Made by a program: the position numbers and the translations under genes. Shown here one piece after another: positions 19,110 to 63,664 of a stretch of 64,000 nucleotides of DNA (positions are counted from its first letter, which is position 1; every line of letters begins with the position of its first letter). The notes beneath the pieces are model-generated. The model was not told the origin of the DNA. It searched no databases and worked only from the letters and a program-made list of their open reading frames with translations. The stretch is from Thiosulfatihalobacter marinus (GTDB lineage Bacteria; Pseudomonadota; Alphaproteobacteria; Rhodobacterales; Rhodobacteraceae): NCBI RefSeq assembly GCF_016019955.1, contig NZ_JAECRZ010000016.1, positions 1 through 64,000 on the forward strand, given 5' to 3'.

Positions 19110-19318
19110 TGACCGATTGGACAGAAACCGAGCTGTCGGCCCTGCGCCGCGCTTATGCCAGCGGCACGACCCGGGTCAGCTATGACGGCAAGTCTGTCGA
19201 CTATGGCTCGGCCGAAGATCTTCTGGCCCGGATTCGCACCATCGAACGCGCTATCGCCGGGACGGCAAGACCACTGCCGATCGCCGGCCTCGCGAGCTTC
19301 TCGCGTGGAGACCGCTGA
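19109..19318 (+). CDS. GpW-like head-tail connector
   Basis: A 69-residue protein (MTDWTETELSALRRAYASGT ... RTIERAIAG) with the length and helical pattern of lambda gpW, which sits between portal and tail and stabilises packaged DNA. The ATG overlaps the natural stop of the terminase frame, and the stop overlaps the portal ATG (TGATG), so it lies between the two genes as gpW does in lambda. The C-terminal part of a homologue survives in prophage B (55701-55787). Confidence 0.75.
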   Translation: MTDWTETELSALRRAYASGTTRVSYDGKSVDYGSAEDLLARIRTIERAIAGTARPLPIAGLASFSRGDR

Positions 19319-40815: not shown

Positions 40816-41652
40816 ATGACAGACCAATGCCTTTTCTCTCACCTCGCCGAAATCTTCTCCGGTGTCTTTGCCACGGACCTGCTGCGCTACGTCGTCGGTG
40901 CCGGCGGAGTTTACCTGGCCGTCAATCTGGTTCTTGCTGCCCGGCTGCGCTCGCGGAAGATCCGGGCTTCCCATCCGCCACGAGGCCAAATCCGCCGCGA
41001 AATCCTCGCGAGTCTGCGAACCGTTCTTGTCTTTGCGCTGAACGGCACGCTGATCGTTTTTGGAGCCGAGGCCGGTATCGTGCCGATCTACACCGAGATC
41101 GGCGCATATGGCTGGATCTATCTTGGTCTCAGCACGGCGGTTCTGATCGTCGCGCATGACGCCTGGTTCTACTGGTCGCACCGGCTGTTGCACTATCCTC
41201 CGCTCTTCCGGCGGTTTCACCGGCTGCATCACAAGTCGCACAATCCGACGCCGTTCACATCCTACAGCTTCGATCTGGGCGAGGCGGTTGTGAACGCCGT
41301 CTACCTTCCGCTCATCCTGCTGGTTCTGCCGGCGCACCCGGTGGCGATCCTGATCTTTGTCACGCACATGATGTTGCGCAATGCCATCGGGCATTCCGGC
41401 TATGAACTCTTTCCGGCCAACCGGCACGGCAAACCGCTGTTCGACTGGATGACAACCGTCACCCATCATGATCTGCACCACGCCCATGCAGGATACAACC
41501 TCGGCCTTTACTTCACCTGGTGGGACCGTCTGATGGGAACGGAGCATCCGGGTTACCACGCAGAGTTTCACCGCGCAGCGTGTCAGAGGCCGATGCGTTC
41601 ACGGTCTCGAAGTTCGGCCTCCCACCTTGCCACGGAAGGACGGATCAAATGA
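40816..41652 (+). CDS. Sterol desaturase/fatty acid hydroxylase family enzyme
   Basis: About 278 residues from the ATG at 40816. It has several membrane helices and the histidine clusters of the di-iron superfamily: HRLLH, HRLHHKSH and HHDLHH. Such enzymes hydroxylate or desaturate membrane lipids using oxygen. The last 25 residues (RPMRSRSRSSASHLATEGRI) look like a tail unrelated to the family and may reflect a 3' rearrangement. It overlaps the methyltransferase gene by ATGA and is divergent from the AraC regulator. Confidence 0.85.
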   Translation: MTDQCLFSHLAEIFSGVFATDLLRYVVGAGGVYLAVNLVLAARLRSRKIRASHPPRGQIRREILASLRTVLVFALNGTLIVFGAEAGIVPIYTEIGAYGWIYLGLSTAVLIVAHDAWFYWSHRLLHYPPLFRRFHRLHHKSHNPTPFTSYSFDLGEAVVNAVYLPLILLVLPAHPVAILIFVTHMMLRNAIGHSGYELFPANRHGKPLFDWMTTVTHHDLHHAHAGYNLGLYFTWWDRLMGTEHPGYHAEFHRAACQRPMRSRSRSSASHLATEGRIK

Positions 41653-42275
41653 CCAAACCCGAGTTCATCGCGCGTCAGAGCCGTTGCCCGACCGGGCTTC
41701 TTGGTGGTGTCGTCGCCCGTGTCATGGCGCGGGAAACGCGGGCCGAGAACCGACGGGCGCTTGATCTGCTGGACCTTGAAGATGGCGACAGTCTGCTCGA
41801 CATCGGATGCGGGCATGGTGAGACGCTGCGATACGCAGATCGCATGGTGCGGCTGTCGCGTGGCGTGGGTGTCGATTTTTCCGGCGTCATGGTGCGACTT
41901 GCGCGAAAACGAAACCGCGCGGCGGTCTGGGATACGCGCTTGTCGTTTCATTGTGCCGACAGTGCGAACCTGCCTTCGCCGAACAACCGTTTCTCCAAGG
42001 CGCTGTCGGTGCACACGGTGTATTTCTGGTCCGGCCCGGCCGCCCATCTGGCCGAAGCGTTTCGCATCCTCATCCACGGGGGGCGGTTCCTGCTGTGCTA
42101 TCGCTCGTCTGCGGACGCGCGCGCGCTGAAGGATTATCCGGACACGATCTATCGCTTCCCCTCGGTCGCCGAGGTCGAAAAAGAACTGGCGAAGGCCGGG
42201 TTCGCCAGCATCCAGACCGAGACAGCAGACATTTCCGGACGGCTGACGCATTGGACGATCTCAAGGAGGATCTGA
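41649..42275 (+). CDS. Class I SAM-dependent methyltransferase
   Basis: About 208 residues from the ATG overlapping the desaturase stop. The SAM-binding motif is LLDIGCGHGETLRYA, followed by GVDFSGVMVRLARKRN and a post-motif HGGRFLLCYRS. It is close to the small UbiE-like methyltransferases. Coupling to a lipid-modifying enzyme suggests a lipid or quinone-like substrate, but this is inference. It converges on the ArsR gene. Confidence 0.8.
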   Translation: MTKPEFIARQSRCPTGLLGGVVARVMARETRAENRRALDLLDLEDGDSLLDIGCGHGETLRYADRMVRLSRGVGVDFSGVMVRLARKRNRAAVWDTRLSFHCADSANLPSPNNRFSKALSVHTVYFWSGPAAHLAEAFRILIHGGRFLLCYRSSADARALKDYPDTIYRFPSVAEVEKELAKAGFASIQTETADISGRLTHWTISRRI

Positions 42276-42360: not shown

Positions 42361-42690
42361 TCACCCGGCCTCCTTGCATTGGTCTGGTCTTTCGAGGGTT
42401 TCTGTCCACGCGCGGAAATCCTCGAGAAGCTCCAGAAGTTTCTGGTTGGGCAGACAATAGTACACGAACGGCCCGCGCTTCTCCGGGCGGACCAACCCCG
42501 CTTCGCGCAACAGCCGCAGGTGGAACGAGACATTGGTTTGGCTGAGCCCGGTTTCCTCGACAATCGATCCGACGGACTGGCACTCCAGCCCCAGCCCGCA
42601 CAGGATGCGCAGGCGGTTCGGCTCCGACAGGAGCTTGAAAATCTCGCTCAGGGACTTGACGCCGCCGCAATCGATCATGATATCCGCCAT
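42361..42690 (-). CDS. ArsR-family transcriptional regulator
   Basis: About 109 residues from the ATG at 42690 (GTG 42702 possible). The winged helix is clear: FKLLSEPNRLRILCGLGLEC, SQTNVSFHLRLLREAGLV, GPFVYYCLPN. Cysteines lie in DCGG, RILC, LEC and YYC; the RILC position is similar to a redox cysteine in sulfide-responsive ArsR regulators such as SqrR/BigR. It is divergent from the Met-rich DUF302 gene. Sensing of metal or sulfane sulfur is possible but not shown. Confidence 0.8.
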   Translation of the reverse strand: MADIMIDCGGVKSLSEIFKLLSEPNRLRILCGLGLECQSVGSIVEETGLSQTNVSFHLRLLREAGLVRPEKRGPFVYYCLPNQKLLELLEDFRAWTETLERPDQCKEAG

Positions 42691-42770
42691 ATGCGTGATC
42701 ACTTATATGAATAGTCTCTCACATAATGTGGGGACTCGGGCGCGATGTCAAACCAGAATGGAGAACGGCG
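42691..42770. promoter_or_regulatory. Divergent ArsR/DUF302 control region
   Basis: The 80-bp gap between the ArsR gene and the DUF302 gene contains the near-perfect palindrome CACATAATGTG (42720-42730) and AT-rich flanks (TTATATGAAT) that contrast with the GC-rich surroundings. These are good candidates for the ArsR operator and both promoters. The DUF302 gene has GGAGAA before its ATG. Confidence 0.45.
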
Positions 42771-43343
42771 ATGATGGGAAACATGAAAGAGATGATGGGC
42801 AGGATGGACGCCGACATGAAGGCGAAGGGCCAGAGCATGATGGAGCAGTGCAAATCCATGATGGCGCGGATGGAGCCGGACATGCGGGCCGAATGCCAGT
42901 CGATGATGCAGCGGGCGAAGTCCATGATGGGGGAAAGCGAAAAGGCAGGCCCGGGTGACCTGGTCTTCACCCACACCGCCGCCGGCACATTCGATGAGAT
43001 CGAAGCGCGCGTCGAGGCGGACGGTGAAGCCATCGGGCTCGAACTGAAAAAGCATTACCCGTTCTCGAAGAACCTGCCCGCTCAGAAAGGGCTGGAGATC
43101 AAGGAGGATGCCTCCGTTTTCGAGCTGTGCAACGCGCCGCTGGCCGCAGAACTGCTCAACACCCAGCCGGAACTGAACGTGCTGATGCCTTGCCGGATCA
43201 GCATCTATGCCAAGGATGGCGAGGTGTTCGTGACCATCCCAAATCTCGAGACCCAGCTTGCAGCGCTCGGTGCCGAGGGTGAACTGAAGGCCAACATCCT
43301 CGATCTCTACGCCAAGATGGTCGAGATGATCAAAGCCTGGTAG
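42771..43343 (+). CDS. DUF302 protein with a methionine-rich tandem-repeat N-terminus
   Basis: A 190-residue protein. The first 53 residues contain 17 methionines and two cysteines, arranged as two tandem copies of a 22-residue unit (residues about 11-54) with QSMMEQCKSMM and ECQSMMQRAKSMM cores. There is no signal peptide. The C-terminal part is a DUF302 domain (AGTFDEIEARVEADGEAIGL; VFELCNAPLAAELL; VLMPCRISIYAKDGEV). DUF302 proteins occur near sulfur oxidation and metal genes. Methionine clusters suggest binding of Cu(I) or another soft metal, or quenching of oxidants. It precedes the permease gene. Confidence 0.7.
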   Translation: MMGNMKEMMGRMDADMKAKGQSMMEQCKSMMARMEPDMRAECQSMMQRAKSMMGESEKAGPGDLVFTHTAAGTFDEIEARVEADGEAIGLELKKHYPFSKNLPAQKGLEIKEDASVFELCNAPLAAELLNTQPELNVLMPCRISIYAKDGEVFVTIPNLETQLAALGAEGELKANILDLYAKMVEMIKAW

Positions 43344-43364: not shown

Positions 43365-44102
43365 ATGAACGACTACATCCTGTATTTTTCCCTGACGCTG
43401 GGGTTTTCCACGCTGTTTTCCATGGGTGGCATCGGCGCGGCCATTGCGCTGGTGCCGCTGTTCAACGTGGCGGGGTTGCCGATCAACCTCGCCAAGGCAA
43501 TCGGGCTGTTCGTCAACACCTCCAGCACCATTACCGCCAGCGTGATGAACTTCAGGCGCGGGGTGCTGAATGTGAAGGCGACCCTGCCGCTGATCATTGC
43601 CATTCTGCTGGCCACGCCGCTGGGCGCCTGGCTGAGCCAGCATGTCAACGAGGTCTGGGTGAAATGGCTGCTTGTGGCCTTCCTCGTGACCAGCGGCACA
43701 CTCCTGCTGTTTCAAAAACGCGAGGCGCGGTTCCGGTTTCGCAGCCCCGCGCTGCTGGCGGCTTTGGGCGGCGGTGTCGGCATCGTCTCGGGCCTTCTGG
43801 GCGTTGGCGGCGGCTCGCTCCTGATCCCGATGCTGATCTTGCTCGGCTATAACGCCAAGGAGGCGGGGATTGCGGTAGGCATGGTGATCCCGTTTTCATC
43901 CTTCGGGGCCTTCACCACCTATCTGGGCTTCACCGAAATGGACTGGCGGCTTTTGGGAGTCGTGACCGTCGCGGCAATCCTCGGCGGCTATTTCGGCAAC
44001 CGGATCATGCATTTCAGGCTTTCACCGGCGCAGGTCAAGAAACTGATCGGTGTCGTGCTTTATCTGCTCGCGGCCAAAGTTGCGTTTGGTCTGCTGGTCT
44101 AA
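43365..44102 (+). CDS. TauE/SafE (TSUP) family permease
   Basis: A 245-residue protein with about seven membrane helices and the paired glycine-rich repeats of the family: GGIGAAIALVPLFNVAGLPI and GGGVGIVSGLLGVGGGSLLI. TSUP members export or import sulfite, sulfoacetate, thiosulfate and related anions. It lies 21 bases after the DUF302 gene, so they probably form an operon. Its end overlaps the convergent ArsR-rhodanese gene by 4 bases. Confidence 0.85.
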   Translation: MNDYILYFSLTLGFSTLFSMGGIGAAIALVPLFNVAGLPINLAKAIGLFVNTSSTITASVMNFRRGVLNVKATLPLIIAILLATPLGAWLSQHVNEVWVKWLLVAFLVTSGTLLLFQKREARFRFRSPALLAALGGGVGIVSGLLGVGGGSLLIPMLILLGYNAKEAGIAVGMVIPFSSFGAFTTYLGFTEMDWRLLGVVTVAAILGGYFGNRIMHFRLSPAQVKKLIGVVLYLLAAKVAFGLLV

Positions 44103-44758
44103 GAATGCTCGAGTGGCAGCCCCGCCGCGCGCCATTCCGGCAGCCCGTCCTCCAACCGGCGCGCGGCAATCCCCTTTTTGCGCAGCGCCGCGACCGCTTC
44201 GAAAGAGAGGACGCAGTAAGGGCCGCGGCAATAGGCAATTACCTCTTTGCCGGGGTCGATTTCCGCCAGGCGGCTTTCCAGTTCTTCGAGCTGCATGTTG
44301 ACCGCGCCGGGCAGATGCCCGGCCCGAAACTCGTCCTCGGGACGCACGTCCAGCACCGTGACCAGACCGTCGCGCGACCGCTCGATCAGGTCCTCGTGCG
44401 AAACCGGTTCCATCGCGTCACGTTCATGGAAATAGCCGCGCAGCACCTTGTCCACTTCGGCGAGATTGTGCTCTCCGACGTCAAACAGGGCCGCAATGAG
44501 GCCAAGCACCCTGTCGCCGCTCAGACGGTACAGGATGAATTTTCCGTCCCGGCGTGATTCCACCAGTCCGGCGTGTTTCAGCAATTGCAGATGCTGAGAG
44601 GTGTTTCCGGTGGTCAGTCCGACCTTCGCCGCGAGGGCCTCGACCCCGCGCTCGCCTTGCGCGAGATGTTCAAGAATATCAAGGCGGTGCGCATGCCCCA
44701 GCGCCCGACCGATGCCTGCAAAGGCCTCATAGAGCTTCAGTTTCGGACTGATTGACAT
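44099..44758 (-). CDS. ArsR-rhodanese fusion regulator
   Basis: A 219-residue fusion. Residues 1-100 are an ArsR winged helix (LGHAHRLDILEHLAQGERGV; TTGNTSQHLQLLKHAGLVES). Residues about 118-215 are a rhodanese domain with active-site loop CRGPYC (near residue 177). The second cysteine in the loop could allow disulfide or persulfide switching. A plausible reading is that rhodanese persulfidation controls DNA binding. It is divergent from the second sterol desaturase gene. Confidence 0.85.
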   Translation of the reverse strand: MSISPKLKLYEAFAGIGRALGHAHRLDILEHLAQGERGVEALAAKVGLTTGNTSQHLQLLKHAGLVESRRDGKFILYRLSGDRVLGLIAALFDVGEHNLAEVDKVLRGYFHERDAMEPVSHEDLIERSRDGLVTVLDVRPEDEFRAGHLPGAVNMQLEELESRLAEIDPGKEVIAYCRGPYCVLSFEAVAALRKKGIAARRLEDGLPEWRAAGLPLEHS

Positions 44759-44837: not shown

Positions 44838-45689
44838 ATGACAGACCTGCTTTTGACAAATGAAGGTGCCATACGTCTGGCCGTTTTCCTCGGCATTCTG
44901 GTTGTCATGGCGGTCTGGGAGGTTGCCGCACCACGCCGCCGGATCGAGATCCCTCGCGTCATCCGCTGGACCAACAATCTGGGTGTCGTTGTCATCGACA
45001 CCATCCTTGTGCGCCTGACCTTTCCGGTTGTCGCCATGGGTCTTGCTCTGCTGGCGCAGGAAAACGGCTGGGGCCTGTTCAACATTGTCCAGGTGCCGGG
45101 ATGGGTCGCCATCGTGGTATCCGTCGTGGTTCTGGATTTCGTGATCTACCTCCAGCATGTGCTGTTTCACGCGGTGCCCGCCCTGTGGCGGCTGCACCGG
45201 ATGCATCACGCCGACCAGGCGTTTGACGTGACCACCGGGCTGCGGTTCCATCCCATCGAGATCTTGCTGTCGATGGGGATCAAGCTGGCCGCCGTTCTGG
45301 CGCTCGGTCCGCCCGCCGTGGCCGTTCTGATCTTCGAGGTGCTGCTGAACGGCACCGCGATGTTCAACCATTCCAACATTCGCCTGCCCGAAGGAGTGGA
45401 CAGGGTGCTGCGGCTCTTCGTGGTCACGCCCGACATGCACCGCGTGCATCACTCGGTGATCCAGCGTGAGACCGACAGCAATTACGGCTTCAACCTGCCG
45501 TGGTGGGACCGCCTGCTGGGCACCTATATCGCCCAGCCATCCAAGGGCCACGAGGGCATGACAATCGGGTTCGAGCAGTTCCGCCGCGTGCGCGAGCAAT
45601 GGCTCGACAAGATGCTGACCCAACCGTTTCGCGGCCCGGCCAGCGGCCCGGACCCGCGCGACCGGAAGGATGCCGAAGATGCTCAGTAG
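44838..45689 (+). CDS. Second sterol desaturase/fatty acid hydroxylase family enzyme
   Basis: A 283-residue membrane protein (AAGGGA before the ATG). Histidine motifs HVLFH, HRMHH and HRVHH match the di-iron hydroxylase superfamily. It differs clearly from the first family member at 40816. It begins the operon that continues with VTT-rhodanese and MFS genes and overlaps the next start by about 10 bases. Substrate unknown; membrane-lipid modification is the usual role. Confidence 0.85.
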   Translation: MTDLLLTNEGAIRLAVFLGILVVMAVWEVAAPRRRIEIPRVIRWTNNLGVVVIDTILVRLTFPVVAMGLALLAQENGWGLFNIVQVPGWVAIVVSVVVLDFVIYLQHVLFHAVPALWRLHRMHHADQAFDVTTGLRFHPIEILLSMGIKLAAVLALGPPAVAVLIFEVLLNGTAMFNHSNIRLPEGVDRVLRLFVVTPDMHRVHHSVIQRETDSNYGFNLPWWDRLLGTYIAQPSKGHEGMTIGFEQFRRVREQWLDKMLTQPFRGPASGPDPRDRKDAEDAQ

Positions 45690-46671
45690 ATCCACTTTCC
45701 CGCGCCTGGCTTTGCTGGTCGCGGTGGCGGCGGCGGTTGCTCTCGTTACCCTGAACCGCGACAAACTCGACCCGGCCCTCCTCGACGCATGGCTCTCCGG
45801 CTTTGGTATCTGGGCGCCGGTGGTCTATGTCGGTCTTTACGCGCTCGGCACCGTGGTCTTTGCCCCGGGCTCGCTCTTTGCCCTGGCAGGCGGCGCGATG
45901 TTCGGCCCGGTTCTGGGCACCTTCCTCAACCTGCTCGGTGCCACCATCGGCGCCAGCATCGCGTTTCTGATCGCCCGCTATCTGGCGGGCGACTGGGTGG
46001 CCCGAAAGGCTGGCGGGCGGCTCAAGCGCATGATTGCCGGTGTCGAAAACGAGGGCTGGCGTTTCGTCGCCTTCGTGCGCCTCGTGCCGGTCTTCCCGTT
46101 CAACCTCAGCAACTATGCGTTCGGCCTGACCCGCATCCCGCTGGTTTCCTACGTGGTGACATCCTTCATCACCATGACCCCCGGCGCGCTGGCCTATACG
46201 TGGCTCGGTTTCGCTGGACGCGAGGCGCTGGAGGGCAACGGTTCCGCCATCCGCTATGGCCTGCTGGCGCTTGGCCTGCTGGCGGCAATCGCCCTCCTTC
46301 CCCGGATCATCAAACGGATGCGCGGCGGCGACATTGCATGGATCGACGCCCCGACCACCCTGGCGCGGCTGGCCGAATCCGCGCCGCCGACCATCCTCGA
46401 CGTACGCGGGGCAGACGAGTTCACCGGGCCGCACGGACATATCCCCGGCGCGCTCAACATTCCGCTGGAGGAACTGGAGGCGCGCATTGACGCGGTTGCG
46501 GCCAAGCTCAAGGGCGAGGTCATCACCGTTTGCCGCACCGAGCGGCGGTCGGCCGGTGCTGCCCGGCTCTTGCAGGATGTCGGCTTTGCGGACGTCAAGG
46601 TACTTAAATGCGGCATGGTCGATTGGAACGCGCGCGGATTGGCCACGAGCCTTGGTGAGCAAGTCGCATGA
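45679..46671 (+). CDS. VTT-domain membrane protein fused to rhodanese
   Basis: About 330 residues from the ATG at 45679 (AAGGA nine bases upstream). Residues about 5-215 are a VTT/DedA-type membrane domain (FAPGSLFALAGGAMFGPVLG; RLVPVFPFNLSNYAFGLTRI). Residues about 230-325 form a cytoplasmic rhodanese (ILDVRGADEF; ITVCRTERRSAGA, catalytic Cys near 285). VTT proteins move lipids or help membrane homeostasis; joined to a rhodanese it could couple membrane transport with sulfane sulfur. The stop overlaps a small frame that precedes the MFS gene. Confidence 0.8.
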   Translation: MLSRSTFPRLALLVAVAAAVALVTLNRDKLDPALLDAWLSGFGIWAPVVYVGLYALGTVVFAPGSLFALAGGAMFGPVLGTFLNLLGATIGASIAFLIARYLAGDWVARKAGGRLKRMIAGVENEGWRFVAFVRLVPVFPFNLSNYAFGLTRIPLVSYVVTSFITMTPGALAYTWLGFAGREALEGNGSAIRYGLLALGLLAAIALLPRIIKRMRGGDIAWIDAPTTLARLAESAPPTILDVRGADEFTGPHGHIPGALNIPLEELEARIDAVAAKLKGEVITVCRTERRSAGAARLLQDVGFADVKVLKCGMVDWNARGLATSLGEQVA

Positions 46672-46817
46672 ACGGGCAGGGATCGAAAGCTGTCTCTGCG
46701 TGGCTTGAAGCGCGTCCAGGGTTGCGGAGCGGGGCTTCCCGTCGCACCGGGGCCGCAAGGGGCGCCGCGCCCGCGCCTCGAGACCCGAAACATTTCACCG
46801 GGGAAACCGACGAATGA
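46668..46817 (+). CDS. Small frame linking VTT-rhodanese and MFS genes
   Basis: A 49-codon frame (MNGQGSKAVSAWLEARPGLR ... HFTGETDE) that overlaps its upstream neighbour by ATGA and the MFS ATG by ATGA. The double coupling hints at real translation, but the composition is basic and low-complexity and I know no homologue. It may be a leader that delivers ribosomes to the MFS start. Confidence 0.3.
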   Translation: MNGQGSKAVSAWLEARPGLRSGASRRTGAARGAAPAPRDPKHFTGETDE

Positions 46818-48124
46818 CACCGAACGATTTGCAGCATGGTCTGTCCGCCAACCGGGCACAGGTCGTCCACCAACTGATCCAGGTATTGCTGGTGGGTTTT
46901 GCCATCGGCATGACCCGCACCGTGGTGCCGGCGCTCGCTGAGACCGAGTTCGGCCTGGCGCGCGGCTCATTTCTGCTGCTTGCGTCTTTCGTGGTGGCCT
47001 TCGGGGCAGTGAAGGCGGCGATGAACTTCGTTGCCGGGCGCTGGTCCGAGCGGGTCGGGCGCAAACGGGTGCTGATCTGGGGCTGGATTGCGGCGCTGCC
47101 GATCCCGGTGCTGATCTGGGCCGCGCCGGACTGGAACTGGATCATCGCCGCGACTGTGCTTCTGGGCATCAACCAGGGGCTTTGCTGGTCGATGACCCAG
47201 ACCGCCAAGCTCGACATCACCAGGGCCGAGGAACGCGGGCTGACCATGGGGCTGAACGAATTCTCGGGCTATGTGGGCGTCGCGCTCGCAGGTGTCCTGA
47301 CGGCCTATGCCGCGGAATGGCTGGGCGCGCGGACCGGGCTCCTTGTCTTCGGCATGACCGTGGTTGTTCTGGCGTTGATGCTGACCGTGGTCTGGGTCCA
47401 GGATACGCTCCCCTGGGCGCGGGCCGAGACGGCCGCGCACAAGGCCGCACCGCCCAGCTTCATGCCGCGCTACCCGAAGGGTGTCTCGCAGCATCCCGGC
47501 ACGGGAGAGGTGTTTGCGCTGATGAGTTGGCGCGACAGGCGGCTTTTCGCAATCAGTCAGGCCGGGCTGGTGGAGAAATTCGTCGATGCGTTGGTCTGGG
47601 CGCTGTTTCCCGTGTTCCTCGTCCAACGCGGCGCGACGCTGACCGAGCTTGGCTGGATCGTGGGCACCTATGGCTTTGTCTGGGGTGGTTCGCAGCTCTT
47701 TACCGGGCGGCTTTCGGACCATGTGGGACGGTTCTGGCCCAATGTGCTGGGCATGTGGATCTCGGGCGCGGGGGTCGCGATGGTGGTCATGGGGTCCGGT
47801 GCGCTGTGGTGGTCGGTCTCGGTCGGGGTCGTGGGGATCGGCATGGCGCTGCTCTATCCCAACCTGTCGGCCGCCGTGGCCGACATCACGCCGCCCGCCT
47901 GGCGCGGCTCTGCCATCGGCATCTACCGCTTCTGGCGCGACCTTGGCTATGCCATCGGCGCTCTTGGCCTCGGCCTTGCCGCCAGCCTGACCGGCGCAGC
48001 AGAGGCCGCCTTCTGGTTCGTCGCGATCTCCATGTTCGTCTCCGGCGCCGTGCTCTTCTGGCTCGGTGAGGAAACCCACCCACGGCTTAATTCCGCCGTA
48101 CAGCCGGAGACTGCCCATGCGTGA
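46814..48124 (+). CDS. Major facilitator superfamily transporter
   Basis: A 436-residue protein with about 12 membrane helices. The family loop motif is seen as GRWSERVGRKRVL after helix 2 and GRLSDHVGRF in the second half. Such proteins exchange small solutes or drugs with proton gradients. Placement between rhodanese-containing genes suggests export of a sulfur- or metal-related compound, but the sequence does not tell the substrate. Its end overlaps the DUF1499 start by 8 bases. Confidence 0.8.
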   Translation: MTPNDLQHGLSANRAQVVHQLIQVLLVGFAIGMTRTVVPALAETEFGLARGSFLLLASFVVAFGAVKAAMNFVAGRWSERVGRKRVLIWGWIAALPIPVLIWAAPDWNWIIAATVLLGINQGLCWSMTQTAKLDITRAEERGLTMGLNEFSGYVGVALAGVLTAYAAEWLGARTGLLVFGMTVVVLALMLTVVWVQDTLPWARAETAAHKAAPPSFMPRYPKGVSQHPGTGEVFALMSWRDRRLFAISQAGLVEKFVDALVWALFPVFLVQRGATLTELGWIVGTYGFVWGGSQLFTGRLSDHVGRFWPNVLGMWISGAGVAMVVMGSGALWWSVSVGVVGIGMALLYPNLSAAVADITPPAWRGSAIGIYRFWRDLGYAIGALGLGLAASLTGAAEAAFWFVAISMFVSGAVLFWLGEETHPRLNSAVQPETAHA

Positions 48125-55700: not shown

Positions 55701-55787
55701 ATCCGCACCATCGAGCGCGCCATCGCCGGGACGACCCGACCGCTGCCGATGGCCGGGCTCGCGGGCTTTAGCCGCGGGGATCGCTGA
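55701..55787 (+). pseudogene. C-terminal fragment of a GpW-like gene
   Basis: Codons read IRTIERAIAGTTRPLPMAGL then GFSRGDR and stop, overlapping the portal ATG exactly as in prophage A. The upstream side joins directly to the last codons (SEGEHAE, minus strand) of the small gene equivalent to 16217-16486, so the terminase genes were deleted between these points. Confidence 0.75.
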
Positions 55788-57358
55788 TGTCCGCGACCTG
55801 GTTCGACCACGCCATCGCCATGGTGGCGCCGCGCATGGCCGCGCGCCGCGTGATGGCGCGTCAGGCCTTCGAGACCCTGACGCGCGGCTACGATGGGGCG
55901 GCACGCGGGCGGCGCACCGAGGGCTGGCGCGCGCCGGGCTCCTCGGCCGACACCGAAATCGGCGTCGCCGGGGCGCTCTTGCGCGACCGGATGCGGGATC
56001 TGGTGCGCAACAACCCGCACGCGGCGAAGGCTGTGGCGGTGCTGGTGAACAACATCATCGGCGCGGGGATCATGCCGCGCGCCGCGAGCGGCGACGACAA
56101 GCTCGACCGCAAGGTCGACGCGCTGTTCGAGCGCTGGACGGCGGAGTGCGACGCCGACGGCCAGCTGGACTTCTATGGACTGCAGACTCTGATCTGCCGC
56201 GAGATGGTCGAGGCAGGCGAAGTGCTGGTGCGCCGCCGTCTGCGGCGGGCCAGCGATGGCCTGCCGGTGCCGCTGCAGTTGCAGGTGCTGGAGGCCGACT
56301 TCCTCGACGCCACGAAATCCGGCGCCGTCGGTTCTGGACGCCTTGTGCAGGGGATCGAGTTCGACCCTGTTGGCAAGCGCCGGGCTTACTGGCTGCACGC
56401 CGAACATCCCGGCGACGCCTATGGGGCCTTGCAGAACGGATTACAGAGCCGCCCGGTGCCCGCGAGTGAGATCGCCCATGTCTATGAAAAACAGCGCACG
56501 CAGGCGCGCGGCGTTCCCTGGGGCGCGCCAGTCATTCGGTCCTTGCGGGATCTTGATGACTATGAGGTCGCCGAACTGGTCCGCAAAAAGACCGAGGCCT
56601 GCGTCACGGCCATCGTCTTCGGCGACGACGAGGTGCAGCAGGGCATCGCGCCCTCGGTGGTCGATGCCGACGGCAACCGGGTCGAGCAGTTCGAGCCGGG
56701 GCTGATCGCCTATGCCCGCGGCGGCAAGGACATCCGCTTCAACCAGCCATCGGCGACGGGCGGCTATGGCGAATACAAGCGCGCCAGCCTGCACACGATC
56801 TCGACCGGGTTCCGGGTGCCTTACGAGTTGCTGACCGGGGACCTGTCCCAGGTCAACTATTCCTCGATCCGGGCGGGGCTCGTCGAATTCCGCCGCCAGA
56901 TCGACGCCGTGCAGTGGCAGCTCTTCATCCCGATGTTCTGCGCGCCCACCTGGCGCTGGTTCACGGAAGCGGCGTGGGCGGCGGGGCAGATCCCGTCGCC
57001 GACGGTGCCGGTCGAGTGGTCGCCGCCCAAGTTCGAGGCGGTCGATCCGCAGAAGGACGCGATGGCAAACCTGCTGTCGATCCGCTCGGGCACCATGACG
57101 CTGGCCGAAGTGATCGCGAAACAGGGCCGCAACCCGGACGCCGTGCTGGCCGAAATCGCCGCGACCAATGCCAAGCTCGATGCCCTCGGTCTCGTGCTCG
57201 ACAGCGACCCGCGCCGTGTCACCAAGACCGGCAGCGCGCAGACGAGCGATCCGGCTACCGATCCGGCCGACGACGAACCGGACACCGACGACCCGACCGC
57301 CGACGACCCGGCCGCCAACGTGGAAAATGACCCGGCGCAGGCCGACCAACAGGACTGA
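55787..57358 (+). CDS. Lambda-type portal protein, prophage B copy
   Basis: A 523-residue portal protein, full length and without lesions, roughly nine-tenths or more identical by eye to the portal at 19318-20886. Differences concentrate in the first 80 residues and in the Asp/Pro-rich tail. Intact coding potential is surprising in a remnant with no terminase or complete capsid gene; it may be recent decay, or the portal may still be expressed. Confidence 0.85.
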   Translation: MSATWFDHAIAMVAPRMAARRVMARQAFETLTRGYDGAARGRRTEGWRAPGSSADTEIGVAGALLRDRMRDLVRNNPHAAKAVAVLVNNIIGAGIMPRAASGDDKLDRKVDALFERWTAECDADGQLDFYGLQTLICREMVEAGEVLVRRRLRRASDGLPVPLQLQVLEADFLDATKSGAVGSGRLVQGIEFDPVGKRRAYWLHAEHPGDAYGALQNGLQSRPVPASEIAHVYEKQRTQARGVPWGAPVIRSLRDLDDYEVAELVRKKTEACVTAIVFGDDEVQQGIAPSVVDADGNRVEQFEPGLIAYARGGKDIRFNQPSATGGYGEYKRASLHTISTGFRVPYELLTGDLSQVNYSSIRAGLVEFRRQIDAVQWQLFIPMFCAPTWRWFTEAAWAAGQIPSPTVPVEWSPPKFEAVDPQKDAMANLLSIRSGTMTLAEVIAKQGRNPDAVLAEIAATNAKLDALGLVLDSDPRRVTKTGSAQTSDPATDPADDEPDTDDPTADDPAANVENDPAQADQQD

Positions 57359-58930: not shown

Positions 58931-59018
58931 CTTTCGACAAAAGATCGGAGATGGCGATAGCCGCTCCCGAAACCGTCCCCGCAATTGCGACACAAGCCGC
59001 CAAAGTTCTGAGCCTCAT
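58845..59018 (-). pseudogene. Truncated secreted protein at the end of the copper operon
   Basis: An ATG at 59018 overlaps the SCO1 stop (ATGA) and opens a frame with a good Sec signal peptide (MRLRTLAACVAIAGTVSGAA, cleavage near residue 22). After about 33 residues the sequence becomes antisense to the GIY-YIG gene and stops at 58845. It is probably the start of another periplasmic gene of the copper operon, cut off at the junction near 58920. Confidence 0.45.
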
Positions 59019-59641
59019 GTCGCCCCTTCCGTTTCTCCTGCCAGCGCGCGGCGAATTTTCGGCAACGCGAATTCCCTCGGCTCGTGATAGTCGATCGTGG
59101 TGACAAACCGCCCCGTGGAGGCGAATAGGAAGACGCCCGCGGTGTGGTTCATCGTGTAATCGCCGCTCTCCGTCGCCACCCTTTCGTAGGTGGCGCGAAA
59201 GCCGTCCGCGACGCGCGCGATCTGCTCCTCCGGCCCCGTCCAGCCACGGATCGCCGGATGGAAATAGCCGACATATTCGGCCATCGTTTCGACAGTGTCG
59301 CGCTCGGGATCGACCGTGATGAAAACCACGTTCATCTCGTCGGCCTCGTCTCCCAGATCGTCGAGCCATCCCGAAATGTCCGAGAGTGTCGTCGGGCAGA
59401 CATCGGGGCAGTAGGTGAAACCGAAGAACACCATCGTCGGGCGGCCGATAAGGGTTTCCGGCCCGACCGCGTTGCCCTCATGATCCGTCAGACGGAAATC
59501 CATCTCGGTCAGGGCCATTGGCCGCTGGCCGATGGGCTCGGATCCACCTGCACCATCGACCTGCCACCAACCGACGAAGAGCATCAGGGCGACCGCCCCG
59601 ACACCGGCGACGCCATACCCCAGGATCGCCCGTCGCCGCAT
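59015..59641 (-). CDS. SCO1/SenC family copper chaperone
   Basis: A 208-residue membrane-anchored periplasmic protein. The copper-binding pair is Cys78 and Cys82 in FTYCPDVCPT, with the conserved His in YTMNHTAG. An N-terminal hydrophobic anchor (residues about 7-27) is present. SCO proteins deliver copper to cytochrome oxidase or act as thiol reductants. It overlaps the PCuAC gene stop by one base. Confidence 0.85.
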   Translation of the reverse strand: MRRRAILGYGVAGVGAVALMLFVGWWQVDGAGGSEPIGQRPMALTEMDFRLTDHEGNAVGPETLIGRPTMVFFGFTYCPDVCPTTLSDISGWLDDLGDEADEMNVVFITVDPERDTVETMAEYVGYFHPAIRGWTGPEEQIARVADGFRATYERVATESGDYTMNHTAGVFLFASTGRFVTTIDYHEPREFALPKIRRALAGETEGAT

Positions 59642-60111
59642 CAGTCCTCCGGACCCCGTGCGGCGACGCCGAGGATCGGCACTTCGACCGTCACTTCGCC
59701 CCCGTCTTCGAAAAGCAAGGTCAGCGGAAAGGTGTCCCCTTCCGTCATCGGTTCTTGCAGCCGCATCAGCATTGCATGCAGGCCGCCCGGCTCAAGCGCG
59801 ACACTCTCGCCCGGGGCGATTGCGATCTCCACCGCCGGACTCATGGAACTCACACCTCCGGCATTGGTCTTCGTCTCGTGAATTTCGGGCATCTTGGCGA
59901 GCGGTGTTGCAAGGCCGACCAACGTCACCGGCTCGTCGCCGGTGTTGCGTATTGTCATGTATGCGGCCCCGGGGCGGTTCATTCCGATGGAGGCGCGGGA
60001 CCACGCGTTCTCGACGACAACATCCTCGGCTCCGGCCAGCGCGGGCGCCGACAGCGCTCCAAATGTCAAAAGCGCGGCCAGGGCAACAGTCAAAACCTTC
60101 TTTTTCATCAA
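59641..60111 (-). CDS. PCuAC-type periplasmic copper chaperone
   Basis: A 156-residue protein with a signal peptide (MKKKVLTVALAALLTFGALS, cleavage after ALA). The copper motif H-x10-M-x21-H-x-M is recognisable: EIHET, SSM, and GLHAMLM. PCuAC hands Cu(I) to SCO1 and oxidase. The neighbour SCO1 gene agrees with this partnership. Confidence 0.85.
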   Translation of the reverse strand: MMKKKVLTVALAALLTFGALSAPALAGAEDVVVENAWSRASIGMNRPGAAYMTIRNTGDEPVTLVGLATPLAKMPEIHETKTNAGGVSSMSPAVEIAIAPGESVALEPGGLHAMLMRLQEPMTEGDTFPLTLLFEDGGEVTVEVPILGVAARGPED

Positions 60112-60126
60112 ACTGGTCTCCTCTTT

Positions 60127-60786
60127 TCAGCTTTGCGCCGCGGCGACTTCAGCAGCCACCACGCGACGCAATTCTGCCTCCCCGAAAGGATCGAGCGGCT
60201 TGCCGTTCACGAAAAAGGTAGGCGTCTGGCGAATGTCCATGGTCGCGACATCTGCACGATCCTGATTCAGGATCGCCACGACATCGGGTGCCAGGATCTG
60301 AGTCCGCGCCGCCTCTGCATCGAGTCCGGCGGTTGCGGCGATCTCCAGGATCAGGCCCGGCGGCGGGGCCCCGCGCGAGGCCCATCGGGGTTGCCCTTCG
60401 AGCAGAGCCGTCATGACCGGCCGGTAGACATCCTGCATCCTTGCAGCTTCGAGAACGCGGATCGCTTCTTCGGAGGATGCGCCATGGAAAGGCGTATAGC
60501 GGATCACGACACGCACCGCGTCGCCATGCTCGGCCATGATGTCCTTCACGATCGGATCGAAGGCACGACAGGCCTCGCAGGCCGGATCGAAGAATTCGAC
60601 GATCGTGACGGGCGCCTCCGCAGGTCCGAGGATGGGTGAGTAGGGGCGGATCAATGCGTCCGCGAGTTCCGGAGCAACGGGCTCCGCTTCGGCCACGGGG
60701 CCGGGGCGGTTAGCATACCAGGTCGCGCCACCGAAACCGGCGACGCCGAGGGCGAGAACGGACAGGATCAGGCCGCGTCTATTCAT
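60127..60786 (-). CDS. DsbA-like thiol oxidoreductase
   Basis: A 219-residue periplasmic protein with an N-terminal anchor or signal (LILSVLALGVAGFGGATWYA) and a thioredoxin fold: active site Cys70-x-x-Cys73 in FFDPACEACRAF and a cis-Pro in RQTPTFFVNGKPL. It resembles the Com1/DsbA branch. Coupled to DsbB by a 4-base overlap, it is likely an oxidant of periplasmic thiols, maybe of the SCO cysteines. Confidence 0.85.
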   Translation of the reverse strand: MNRRGLILSVLALGVAGFGGATWYANRPGPVAEAEPVAPELADALIRPYSPILGPAEAPVTIVEFFDPACEACRAFDPIVKDIMAEHGDAVRVVIRYTPFHGASSEEAIRVLEAARMQDVYRPVMTALLEGQPRWASRGAPPPGLILEIAATAGLDAEAARTQILAPDVVAILNQDRADVATMDIRQTPTFFVNGKPLDPFGEAELRRVVAAEVAAAQS

Positions 60787-61205
60787 GTTCGTGTGTCCTT
60801 CAATGAAAGGGCCGACAGCGCCCCGATCAGCGCGAAGGCGGCGAGCGCCATCAGCGGGATCGGGATGCCGAAGACCAATTGGTTGTCATCGGTGCAAGAG
60901 GGGCCGGTGGCCGTGCAGGGCTGGATACGTTCGGGAACAAGACCGACGTACAGCCCCATGTGCCAAAGGGCGACTGCGCCGCCGCCAAGCGCCAGTGCGA
61001 TGCCGTAGCGCCCCACGCTGCCGTCCCGCCACCAAAGGCCCAGCCCGAGGACAATGGCCAAGGGGAACATGAAGGCGCGCTGGAACCAGCACAGCACGCA
61101 GGGCGTCTGCCCCAGCACCTCGCCGATGAAAAGCACGGCAAGCGAGGCGACAAGCGCGATGACCCATGCGAGCCCGAGGGCTGTTTCTCCGGATATGCGG
61201 TTCAT
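60783..61205 (-). CDS. DsbB disulfide bond formation protein
   Basis: A 140-residue protein from the ATG at 61205, with four membrane helices. The first cysteine pair is TPCVLCWFQR (Cys36, Cys39) and the second is QPCTATGPSC. DsbB re-oxidises DsbA using quinone. It overlaps the DsbA-like gene by ATGA and follows the first SCO gene by 5 bases. Confidence 0.85.
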   Translation of the reverse strand: MNRISGETALGLAWVIALVASLAVLFIGEVLGQTPCVLCWFQRAFMFPLAIVLGLGLWWRDGSVGRYGIALALGGGAVALWHMGLYVGLVPERIQPCTATGPSCTDDNQLVFGIPIPLMALAAFALIGALSALSLKDTRT

Positions 61206-61210
61206 GTCGG

Positions 61211-61813
61211 TCAGATCCTCTCTTCCAGATCGGCGAGAATCTCTTCGGCGGGGGTGCCGTAGGGCCATGAGTCGGCAAAGCCCGCCTCGGGGTCGAAGAG
61301 GAACAGATGCGACGTGTGGCCCATGGTGTACCCATCCGGCGCGGCGGCCTCTTCGACGCGCTCAAAGAAGATTGGAAACGTCTCGGACGTCGCGGCGATC
61401 TGTTCCGGCGTGCCAGTCAGCCCGACGATGCCCGCACCGAACAGAGGGACATATTCTGCGAGCACCATTGGCGTGTCCCGTTCAGGGTCGATTGTTATGA
61501 AAATCGGCTGGACCTTGGCGGCATCGTCGCCCAGACCGTCCATCACCGCCGCGACCTCGGATAGGGTCGTCGGGCAGACGTCGGGGCAGTTGGTAAAGCC
61601 GAAAAAAACCAGCATCCAGCGCCCCGCAAAGTCCTCCTCGGTTTGAACCATACCCTGGTGGTCCGTCAGTTCGAACTCAGCGAAAAAAGGCGGTTCGGCG
61701 TCGGTTCGGGCGCGGTCGGCACGATAGTCGGACCAGAGCAAAAGCCATACGAAGGCAAGCGCTGCCACGCATGCCAAAACCCAAAGAAACTTCTGTGCCG
61801 ATGTAAGGGACAA
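61211..61813 (-). CDS. SCO1/SenC family protein, first gene of the operon
   Basis: A 200-residue protein beginning at TTG 61813. It has a membrane anchor (residues about 8-27) and the copper/thiol pair Cys76 and Cys80 in FTNCPDVCPT, with His in YTMGHTSH. It is clearly different from the second SCO protein of the operon. The operon order is SCO, DsbB, DsbA-like, PCuAC, SCO. A MerR-type palindromic promoter lies about 45 bases upstream. Confidence 0.8.
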   Translation of the reverse strand: MSLTSAQKFLWVLACVAALAFVWLLLWSDYRADRARTDAEPPFFAEFELTDHQGMVQTEEDFAGRWMLVFFGFTNCPDVCPTTLSEVAAVMDGLGDDAAKVQPIFITIDPERDTPMVLAEYVPLFGAGIVGLTGTPEQIAATSETFPIFFERVEEAAAPDGYTMGHTSHLFLFDPEAGFADSWPYGTPAEEILADLEERI

Positions 61814-61848
61814 TCCTGTTCGCCTGTTTTTGATTCTTATTGCATGTG

Positions 61849-61906
61849 CGGATACATCCTCTAGCCGCTAGAAGTTCAAGCACGAAATCATGGTATAGCT
61901 TGAACT
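61849..61906. promoter_or_regulatory. MerR-type operator-promoter for the copper operon
   Basis: On the minus strand a TTGAAC -35 box (61874-61879) is followed by a 19-bp spacer containing the palindrome CTAGCCGCTAG (61861-61871) and a weak -10 near 61849-61854. MerR regulators act on such long-spacer promoters. A further 9-bp inverted repeat, AGTTCAAGC (61873-61881) and GCTTGAACT (61898-61906), extends toward the MerR gene. Confidence 0.5.
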
Positions 61907-61984
61907 CACGCGTCTGTGAATCCGACACTTGTTTATTCCGACGGCAAAACCTACACAGACTGTATCTTTTTCATGGAGGCGAGA

Positions 61985-62413
61985 ATGCTCACGATCGGTA
62001 CTCTGTCAAAGAAGACCGGCACGAAGGTGCAGACCATCCGGTACTACGAGCAGATCGGGCTAATGCCCGAACCTGGCAGGACCGAAGGCGGACAGAGGCG
62101 CTACGACAATGCACAGCTCGACCGACTGTCCTTCATCCGCCACTCGCGGCAACTCGGCTTCTCGCTCGATGCGATCCGCGAGCTACTCGACCTCAGCGAC
62201 CATCCCAACCGACCCTGCGACGAGGCTGATGCCATCGCGCGTCGCCAGCTCAAACAGGTGGAGCAGCGCATGGCCCGCCTGAAGGCGCTGCGCACGGAAC
62301 TGAAACGCATGGTCCACGAGTGCAGCGGCGGGCGGACAGCGGATTGCCGGGTGCTGGAGGTGTTGCGGGACCATTCTGAATGTCTGACCGAGCACGACGA
62401 GATTGGGGCCTGA
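61985..62413 (+). CDS. MerR-family metal-responsive regulator
   Basis: About 142 residues from the ATG at 61985. The N-terminus (MLTIGTLSKKTGTKVQTIRY; GLMPEPGRTEGGQRRY) is a MerR winged helix-turn-helix. A long dimer helix and cysteines at HPNRPCDEADAI and HECSGGRTADCRVLE match the metal-binding layout of PbrR/CadR/ZntR-like members. It is divergent from the SCO operon and upstream of the CDF exporter, so it may control both. The metal is not determined. Confidence 0.8.
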   Translation: MLTIGTLSKKTGTKVQTIRYYEQIGLMPEPGRTEGGQRRYDNAQLDRLSFIRHSRQLGFSLDAIRELLDLSDHPNRPCDEADAIARRQLKQVEQRMARLKALRTELKRMVHECSGGRTADCRVLEVLRDHSECLTEHDEIGA

Positions 62414-62416
62414 TTG

Positions 62417-62805
62417 GGCTCTGTTGCAACAGAGCCGTCTTCTGGCGCCGCGACAGCGTGCTGAAGTCGGGCACAGCCCAGTCCAGGCCGATCAGGCGCA
62501 GCAGGCTCTCGACGAACCCGGTTGTATGGCGCAGGGCCATGCCGAACAGCACCTTCATCGTCAGGCAGGTCTGGATGGCGGCGTCGCTGTGGTCTGGCTG
62601 GCGCCCGCGCTTGCCGGTGGGCGCGGCTCCCCACATCATGGCGGGATCGAACCAGATCGTCAGCGAGCCCCGGCGCTTGAGCGCCTCGTTGTTGGCTGGC
62701 CAGTTCCGGGTCTTGTAGGTCGGGGGTATCGGTCTGCTCATGCAGCCCAGCTACCACGCTGGATTCACAAGATGAATCCCCTCAGACCATTTGTGCAACA
62801 GAGCC
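62417..62805. mobile_element. Internally deleted IS5-family element
   Basis: The element is bounded on the right by TGCAACAGAGCC (62794-62805) and on the left by GGCTCTGTTGCA (62417-62428), inverted ends of the IS5/IS427 type. On the left the two ends fuse into a perfect 20-bp palindrome, GGCTCTGTTGCAACAGAGCC (62417-62436), so most of the element is gone. It separates the MerR and CDF genes and removed the CDF start. Confidence 0.7.
62437..62741 (-). pseudogene. IS5-family transposase, N-terminal fragment
   Basis: About 100 codons from ATG 62741 (MSRPIPPTYKTRNWPANNEA; AAIQTCLTMKVLFGMALRHT; GLDWAVPDFSTLSRRQKT) match the start of IS5-type transposases. The DDE catalytic domain is missing; the frame runs into the terminal palindrome. 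It cannot transpose alone. Confidence 0.8.
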
Positions 62806-62806
62806 A

Positions 62807-63664
62807 GCGAACGCCCTTCTGACCGTCGCGCAGATCGCAGGCGGGATCGTTTCGGGCAGTCTCGCGCTGATCGCGGATGAGCTGCACAACTTCTCGGATA
62901 TGGCGTCGCTGGTGATCGCTTTCGCGGCGCGCAAGATCGCGCGGAGGCCTGCGGACGAGCGGATGACCTTCGGATACGGCCGGATCGAGATTGTCGCGGC
63001 ACTGATCAACTACACGACACTCATCCTCGTCGGCGTTTATCTGATCTACGAGGGCGGTATGCGCATTATCGATCCGCCCGAGGTTCAGGGTTGGACCGTC
63101 GTCATCCTCGGCGGCGTGGCGCTCGTGGTCGACGCTCTGACTGCGGCGCTCACCTGGTCCATGCAGAAGGGCAGCGTGAACATCCGCGCGCTCTTCCTGC
63201 ACAACCTCTCGGATGCGCTCGCCTCGGTCGCCGTGATCGTCGGCGGCACGCTGATCATTCTCTACGACCTGCGCTGGGTCGATCCCGCAATCACCATCGG
63301 TATCGCGCTGTATATACTGTATCTCGCACTGACCGAGATCGGCGGCCCGATCCGGACACTGATGCTGGGCAGCCCGCCGGATATCGACAACTCGGCCGTG
63401 ATCGCCGCGATGCGGGACGTGGACGGCGTTACGGATGTCCACCACGTGCATCTATGGCAGATGCAGGAACACGAGGCGGCGCTCGACTGCCACGTGGTCG
63501 TCGCCGAAGATGGATGGACAAGAATTGAGGCCATCAAGGGCGAGATCAAAGCACGACTGAGCGAGCGCTTCGGCATCGCTCATTCCAGCCTCGAATTCGA
63601 GAATGAAAGGAACGCCCACACCAACGCCAACCTCTACGGTCACGGTAGTAATGGCCATGAATGA
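62807..63664 (+). pseudogene. CDF cation exporter lacking its N-terminus
   Basis: The frame from 62807 reads ANALLTVAQIAGGIVSGSLA, then LIADELHNFSD and later HNLSDALASVAVIVGG, the metal-site motifs of cation diffusion facilitators, and a C-terminal cytoplasmic domain (VHHVHLWQMQEHEAALDCHV). It ends in a His-rich tail. The first 25 or so residues and the start codon are cut off by the IS remnant. Internal ATG 62900 would lose a membrane helix. Intact homologues export Zn, Cd or Co; the adjacent MerR fits. Confidence 0.75.

Follow-up and report, generated by a model that had tools for sequence, protein, structure and literature searches.

Known Met-rich metal proteins are mostly exported, and the periplasmic Met-rich proteins CopM, CopK and MrpX belong to this exported kind. 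For a periplasmic Met-rich peptide a function as an oxidant sink is said to have been proposed by Melnyk in 2015, and the Met-rich M domains provide a flexible hydrophobic binding surface. Cytosolic storage of copper is represented by the Csp3 proteins. DUF302, a domain of unknown function, is present in sox clusters according to the accessible parts of two reports (PMC5037610; PMC11034169) and, in the accessible text of a third, in the SUL module of Arthrobacter together with a sulfur dioxygenase, a CsoR-type regulator, two rhodaneses, TauE and an MFS transporter (PMC6305408). A published link of DUF302 to arsenite and sqr amounts, in the accessible text, to one sentence, behind which our literature search found no paper; a paper on auranofin was rejected as a false match to DUF3025. 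Literature searches on DUF302 (with methionine, copper and rhodanese) and on cytoplasmic methionine-rich proteins with ArsR and copper returned no description of a Met/Cys module, which is weak evidence of absence as subscription papers mostly lay outside their scope. Here we describe a gene of Thiosulfatihalobacter marinus that joins such a module to DUF302. It lies in a stretch of 64,000 nucleotides (contig NZ_JAECRZ010000016.1, positions 1 to 64,000), which was analysed as a whole and is referred to below as the window (Table 1).

A Met/Cys module joined to DUF302

The Met-rich stretch that first drew attention to this gene is real: the first 53 residues of the encoded protein (P0001) contain 17 Met (binomial p ~1.5e-14 against an assumed background of 2.6% Met) and two Cys, and residues 62–190 contain three Met. 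The start codon is backed by the GGAGAA sequence upstream and by an identical start in three related sequences (L071–L073). An earlier note on this DNA had described two tandem 22-residue units with a conserved Cys; the units are present and share 12 of 22 residues and 44 of 66 nucleotides, and their Cys turned out to be out of register, at position 16 of the first and position 9 of the second. A seven-residue step, (C/G/A)(Q/K)SMMxx, spans both units and brings the two Cys into register; L073 has a third Cys in the same register at position 49, where a free-standing peptide discussed below (G1254) also has Cys. With 44 of 66 nucleotides and 14 of 22 third positions shared, a fresh tandem duplication of the DNA was rejected as the origin of the units.

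Table 1. Features of the Met/Cys-DUF302 locus in window coordinates
Feature	Positions	Strand	Remarks
Class I SAM methyltransferase	41649..42275	+	Neighbour, role in module uncertain
ArsR-family regulator	42361..42690	-	C41 and C83 in 19/19 aligned rows
Putative ArsR operator, CATATRAG-type direct repeats	42687..42725	-	16-bp spacing, overlaps arsR start codon, between divergent genes
Met/Cys-DUF302 gene (P0001), 190 aa	42771..43343	+	GGAGAA at 42760-42765
Met/Cys module, residues 1-53	42771..42929	+	Predicted helices 3-32 and 36-52 (low confidence)
Repeat unit 1, 22 residues	42804..42869	+	
Repeat unit 2, 22 residues	42870..42935	+	
MMxxCxxMM signature	42837..42863	+	MMEQCKSMM
DUF302 domain per Pfam, residues 99-156	43065..43238	+	Cys120 and Cys141
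TauE/SafE (TSUP) permease	43365..44102	+	
ArsR-rhodanese fusion	44099..44758	-	43% to L135 and L158
FA_hydroxylase-family protein	44838..45689	+	66% identical to homologue in ArsR locus L167
VTT-domain protein fused to rhodanese	45670..46671	+	VTT part 54% identical to L166/L167
MFS transporter	46814..48124	+	66% to L165, 64% to L168 (ArsR-MBL-MFS loci)

The sulfur-containing residues between positions 3 and 52 cluster on one face of a 100-degree helical wheel (R 0.67, as high in 0 of 5000 random placements), and the clustering holds for residues 3–32 alone (p 0.0004) and for residues 36–52 alone (p 0.023). An AlphaFold model built from six sequences is helical over these same two segments at low confidence, with a pLDDT by ten-residue blocks of 50–61 for residues 1–50 and of 38–61 over residues 1–60; the DUF302 part is partly confident, and the mean pLDDT is 62.6. 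Inspection of the N-terminus revealed no hydrophobic or signal-like segment, on which basis the protein is probably cytosolic. The module alone, in the forms of the window and of L073, matched no Pfam family above cut-off, P0001 reached no NCBIfam cut-off on it, and nothing stood out in the leader RNA structure of the gene (z 0.26).

Close relatives are few. When each species was represented by a single genome (84,980 species according to the description of the tool), a scan with P0001 gave 136 pattern matches and five related loci. Four are contigs of metagenome-assembled genomes and are 100% (L070), 89% (L071), 88% (L072) and 82% (L073) identical to P0001; they are titled Rhodobacteraceae, save L071 (Hyphomicrobiales), which may be misbinned to judge from a flanking gene common to it and L072. 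The fifth (L074, an Arcobacter metagenome-assembled genome) matches at 48% over residues 64–190 and has no Met module. Nine of 292 relatives at E 1e-3 and 48 of 398 genomes of the phylum matched (own genome included in both); otherwise the matches listed were at the level of DUF302, with 19–37% identity. The 20 same-genus genomes listed gave no match to P0001. The mobile collections, searched by BLAST with a low-complexity filter that may mask the Met-rich part of P0001, contained no close relative: at the level of DUF302 there was one match among plasmids (Salinibacter, 40% over 56 residues) and two among phages (33% over 49), and viral contigs gave no match.

Absence of the Met pattern from homologues had been set beforehand as a point that would count against a function, and the pattern is kept: 15 of the 16 Met beyond the start codon and the two Cys are common to the window, L071, L072 and L073, as compared with 23 of the 34 other residues of positions 2–53 (Fisher p 0.042 for Met and 0.028 for Met and Cys, from these four related sequences), the sole Met lost being residue 2. 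The Met/Cys module is under purifying selection. Over residues 1–53 dN/dS between the window and each relative is 0.075–0.10 at dS 1.0–1.2; the DUF302 part is tighter in these pairs (0.037–0.063), and the order flips in all three pairs within L071–L073 (module 0.020–0.080, DUF302 part 0.082–0.198). An artefact or a chance open reading frame was rejected on the grounds of this selection, the conserved start and the existence of homologues.

The assignment of the C-terminal domain to DUF302 holds (PF03625, 49.4 bits with a cut-off of 23), and Foldseek recovered the fold from the AlphaFold model (1q9u_A, E 1.1e-6, TMt 0.78; 1j3m_A, E 6.2e-4, TMt 0.59). The two Cys of the domain are invariant in six aligned rows and matched by Cys in both solved structures. 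Are such extensions common among DUF302 proteins? The survey proposed earlier found CxxMM in none of 175 other distinct proteins (187 loci), identified with a DUF302 profile rebuilt in a script rather than the Pfam HMM. It took in one full listing minus the window gene, the loci from the 292-relative and 398-genome searches, 30 of the 56 rows of another listing and 48 of the at least 140 rows of a third (30 loci and 18). A general habit of DUF302 proteins to carry a Met/Cys extension was rejected on this survey, and DUF302 is a rare fusion partner of the module. Ten Met in 40 residues are reached by three longer DUF302 proteins of other kinds (L116, L125, L126) with unrelated Met segments. The proteins of L125 (832–2734) and L126 (301–2409) have neighbours in which MMNPMM-type repeats occur along with a CxxCH motif, and represent a different association of Met with DUF302. 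In the genome of the window itself another DUF302 gene (L241, C33:365000-375000) has weak SHOCT and VTT matches nearby, as well as a Met-rich protein whose N-terminus is signal-like and in which EF-hand-like segments were identified by eye.

A two-Cys ArsR regulator, free peptides and a Met-rich companion

The gene is divergent from an ArsR regulator, as first noted, and the regulator (P0002) matches both PF01022 (HTH_5, 46.9 bits, cut-off 22) and NF033788 (76.3, cut-off 55). After the general HTH_metalloreg model, the nearest specific NCBIfam ArsR models are TsoR, SdpR, CmtR and BigR, and P0002 lies under every curated cut-off: 73.1 of 115 bits for TsoR (NF045707), 50.1 of 100 for SdpR, 41.8 of 150 for CmtR and 41.7 of 155 for BigR (NF040642). 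Among 303 genomes of the class of G746, 12 have homologues at E 1e-20 or better, as do G1254 and G1263, and a 152-genome sample of the window's own class gave none at this threshold beyond its own genome. The class of G746, to which the G1254, G1055 and G1167 group belongs, is a large second class of the phylum that we take to be Gammaproteobacteria. With 57–71% identity in the matched regions, we treat these ArsRs as probable orthologues. In an alignment of 19 rows, near-duplicates among them, Cys also occupies position 12 in ten rows and position 35 in 11, joining the two invariant Cys listed in Table 1 (numbering follows P0002, which starts at the GTG at 42702).

Upstream of arsR, [CT]ATAT[GA] words are spaced 16 bp apart in 11 of 19 loci and 32 bp apart in seven, the other spacings listed appearing once each, and the regulator may well bind such CATATRAG-type repeats. 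The consensus was derived from the regions that were scored, so that the shuffle values for the 19 regions are optimistic and not independent; four of them (L160, L161, L163, L172) score weakly. In the window one site is exact and one has three mismatches to the pattern; at up to three mismatches the whole window has three matches (1.09 expected), two of which are one site read on both strands, and 10 of 100 shuffles had as many, which is not significant.

In three genomes of the other class (G1254, G1055, G1167) the gene divergent from the ArsR homologue is a free-standing Met/Cys peptide. This corresponds to three of the 14 ArsR loci of the class taken as gammaproteobacterial (L135, L158–L169, L238, of which L161–L163 end at contig ends). 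The G1254 peptide aligns without gaps over 35 residues with window residues 23–57; none of 2000 residue shuffles and none of 2000 dipeptide shuffles reached the score of 99. The G1055 peptide scores 71 (0 of 2000 in both types of shuffle), and the G1167 peptide is weaker, with 10 and 13 of 2000 shuffles against the window and two and none against L073. G1055 lacks the first Met of MMxxCxxMM and the last CxxMM, and G1167 lacks the middle Cys. No NCBIfam or Pfam family covered the G1254 peptide above cut-off (DUF3106, 15.2 of 24.3 bits). Because of the ungapped alignment and the divergent position beside apparently orthologous ArsRs, the window gene looks like a G1254-type peptide fused to DUF302 that occupies the corresponding position beside a regulator of the same kind. 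The emphasis that the earlier note laid on DUF302 was thus too narrow, as three genomes of another class have the homologous module on its own; a similar mini-protein, encoded separately next to a related regulator in bacteria so distant, suggests an unnamed module.

A second Met-rich protein accompanies these loci. L071, L072 and L073 have an 85-residue Met-rich open reading frame after TauE; the window has no companion frame, its TauE and ArsR-rhodanese genes overlapping, and a search of its genome, run without a positive control, gave no match. Homologues of 74–130 residues are present in seven of the 14 ArsR loci (L135, L158, L159, L160, L161, L169, L238), the reading frame of L160 staying open further upstream, and in each of the seven a methyltransferase related to that of L135 (5755–6402) lies close by. 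MMxxCxxMM occurs in the companion at six of these loci (it is absent in L161); the three alphaproteobacterial companions lack the exact motif and read MMPRCMGMI (MMxxCxxMI). Among 249 records (1.11 Mb in six frames, many overlapping) the signature is restricted to module and companion. The companion reached no Pfam cut-off (MgtE_N, 18.9 and 18.1 of 25.9 bits) and no NCBIfam family; its model has five helices (mean pLDDT 76), and comparison with PDB folds gave no match of note (best E 4.1).

Genomic context and candidate ligands

The TSUP permease that had been noticed next to the gene is confirmed as a TauE downstream of it, and the neighbourhood can be read as a set for reactive sulfur no less than for metals. 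Gene content around the ArsR homologues varies by genome and is drawn from a pool common with the window (MFS, FA_hydroxylase, VTT and ArsR-rhodanese, Table 1); further genes in the loci of the other class are those for MBL proteins in four of 14 (L135, L158, L165, L168), GST in five, the methyltransferase in nine, SHOCT in two and an SO_0444 exporter in two (L135, L158). The L135 exporter belongs to the SO_0444 Cu/Zn efflux family (403 bits, cut-off 300); a second ArsR-family gene (HTH_5, 53.7 bits), in L158 recognised by position, separates the exporter from the divergent ArsR of these loci, and the product of this second gene may be what really regulates the exporter. A tblastn search with the L135 MBL protein found no match, as for an MBL-fold sulfur (persulfide) dioxygenase, between 36 and 54 kb of the window.

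Plasmids carry related groupings. Three haloarchaeal plasmid loci place a related methyltransferase near DUF302, together with FAD-type oxidoreductases (three loci), TusA and multicopper oxidase (two each) and DsrE, MBL and YeeE (one); in Halomicrobium DUF302 adjoins the multicopper oxidase. A plasmid of Sulfitobacter dubius groups DUF302, VTT, multicopper oxidase, ArsR, sterol desaturase and heavy-metal ATPase, and on a plasmid of Limimaricola a few kb separate the genes for ArsR, sterol desaturase and MFS from those for YeeE, MBL and rhodanese. Overall, neighbours and plasmid relatives point to the handling of reactive sulfur and less often to copper. In two haloarchaeal plasmids (L175, 1290–2292; L177, 566–1566) the DUF302 gene is tightly paired with that of a second class I methyltransferase, possibly as a functional couple. 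The chlorate reductase genes of Ideonella dechloratans have beside them a related ArsR (57.6% identical over 85 residues) and SHOCT; in the accessible text this ArsR is taken as a putative regulator, unlikely to serve oxygen control (PMC7349173). Behind ArsR and SHOCT (plasmid locus L144, 8602 onward) an open reading frame starts like the methyltransferase (MPDRDWW) and then diverges before an IS21-like element, and is probably a remnant.

The window also contains a copper and metal locus (59015–63664) with two SCO1/SenC genes, PCuAC, DsbA-like, DsbB, a MerR regulator and a cation efflux protein; its SCO1/SenC, PCuAC and DsbA/B-like genes, at 59.0–61.8 kb, lie about 16 kb from the module with phage-like genes between. 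Directly before the cluster, positions 321–39506 are prophage-like (repressor, terminase, portal, tape measure, tail and tail-fibre-like genes by PHROGs), and portal genes of the same PHROGs families at 19318–20886 and 55787–57358 flank the cluster, as if a second partial prophage lay behind it.

What might the module bind? A helical Cys with Met at -4, -3, +3 and +4 places four thioethers round one thiolate, a set that suits Cu(I) or Ag(I), and MMxxCxxMM may offer such a set. Given this coordination set, the two-Cys ArsR and a gene pool of sulfur and copper functions, a cytosolic trap for a soft ligand is the most economical account, and we tentatively favour, at somewhat less than even confidence, a cytosolic helical hairpin of Met and Cys under ArsR control as a trap for a soft thiophile, which is most likely Cu(I). 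The N-terminal 53 residues would form this trap as a hairpin turning near Pro35-Asp36; its thioether and thiolate groups would line one face, on which MMxxCxxMM would bind most tightly. The divergent ArsR would bind the 16-bp-spaced repeats in the shared upstream region and be released by the thiophile. The trap would act as a free peptide in the three carriers taken as gammaproteobacterial and tethered to DUF302 in the alphaproteobacterial ones, where the Cys pair C120 and C141 may take over the bound species or hand it on. Such a unit would operate in a mobile island for reactive-sulfur and soft-metal stress with TauE, rhodaneses and MFS, to which relatives of the island would add MBL hydrolase, methyltransferase and GST. 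The computed support consists of the conservation of Met and Cys, the homology to free peptides beside the orthologous ArsRs, the shared operator-like repeats and the neighbourhood; the cytosolic location, the fold of the module, its ligand, the inducer, the binding of ArsR and the role of DUF302 are what we infer. In the gene context, soft metals are favoured by the SCO1/SenC, PCuAC and DsbA/B-like genes of the window, the plasmids of Sulfitobacter dubius and Halomicrobium and the SO_0444 exporters; the distance of the window's copper genes from the module and the second ArsR gene beside the exporter weigh against them. The suggestion of a soft-metal or oxidant buffer made at the outset finds partial support, in its first half, which is chemically and contextually reasonable and agrees with a Met pattern kept in homologues.

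It is possible, though in our judgement doubtful, that the locus has no metal role and handles reactive sulfur, the Cys of module and DUF302 carrying sulfane sulfur as persulfide or polysulfide, the Met face acting as a soft hydrophobic bed and ArsR as a persulfide sensor. The gene context speaks for this: TauE, two rhodanese fusions and MFS in the window, the MBL, GST and methyltransferase genes of the ArsR loci in the other class, the TusA, FAD/NAD(P) oxidoreductase, DsrE, MBL and YeeE genes around DUF302 and the methyltransferase on two haloarchaeal plasmids, and, in the accessible texts, DUF302 in sox clusters (PMC5037610; PMC11034169) and the Arthrobacter SUL gene set (PMC6305408). The haloarchaeal loci and, as far as its accessible text goes, the SUL module (PMC6305408) fit reactive sulfur without copper, which counts against the latter. 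However, a carrier of sulfane sulfur leaves unexplained that 15 of 16 Met are kept while the residue at the third Cys position varies. P0002, moreover, falls far under the cut-off of BigR, which we take to be a regulator of the persulfide-sensing kind. Since Met is the residue type that the module conserves best, we place copper first, narrowly, over sulfane sulfur.

Contact with a protein or membrane, in which a flexible hydrophobic Met face would dock DUF302 to TauE or another partner and perform no ligand chemistry, is improbable; the amphipathic one-face pattern and the all-helical model of the companion agree with it, but the conserved Cys within the Met runs and the free peptides in loci with no DUF302 or TauE match do not. 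Most improbable is a methionine sink for HOCl or peroxide recycled by methionine sulfoxide reductase: the high density of Met and the ArsR and SHOCT genes beside the Ideonella chlorate reductase genes would suit it, yet the reductase is absent among the 19 window proteins near the cluster (Pfam), which leaves the "oxidant buffer" of the earlier note little supported, and a sink would need neither ordered spacing on one face nor a CxxMM motif.

Returning to the copper trap, a wider proposal takes MMxxCxxMM as the mark of a so far undescribed class of cytosolic proteins that hold soft ligands through Met and Cys. The class would comprise a hairpin of about 30 residues, free or fused to DUF302, and a Met-rich companion of about 85 residues, under a two-Cys ArsR with a direct-repeat operator; it would serve as a buffer or carrier of Cu(I) where the metabolism of copper and that of sulfane sulfur cross, and would have spread on mobile islands between bacterial classes. 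We regard this as unlikely and offer it as a speculation. A cytosolic, regulator-linked Met/Cys hairpin with a short signature would be a new type of ligand for cytosolic copper handling and would provide a concrete handle on DUF302, which recurs in sulfur-oxidation, sulfide-detoxification and copper clusters.

Comparison with known systems

By sequence and fold (PF03625; 1q9u, 1j3m) the C-terminal domain of P0001 is a plain member of the DUF302 family; what sets the protein apart is its N-terminus, which carries CxxMM, found in none of the 175 other DUF302 proteins, and reaches 13 Met in 40 residues as compared with at most ten elsewhere in the family. With the Arthrobacter SUL module the window has TauE, rhodaneses, MFS and DUF302 in common, as far as the accessible text describes it (PMC6305408), and differs in an ArsR-type instead of a CsoR-type regulator and in the Met/Cys module. 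As in P0001, the Met-rich segments of CopM, CopK and MrpX are found near metal or oxidant genes; P0001 differs from these proteins in having no signal-like segment on inspection and in being divergent from an ArsR. The proposed module resembles the Csp3 cytosolic copper storage proteins, in the accessible account of them, in that it would likewise be cytosolic, helical and lined with soft ligands. Csp3 uses many Cys in a four-helix bundle, whereas the module has two Cys and 17 Met in 53 residues and a two-helix hairpin predicted at low confidence.
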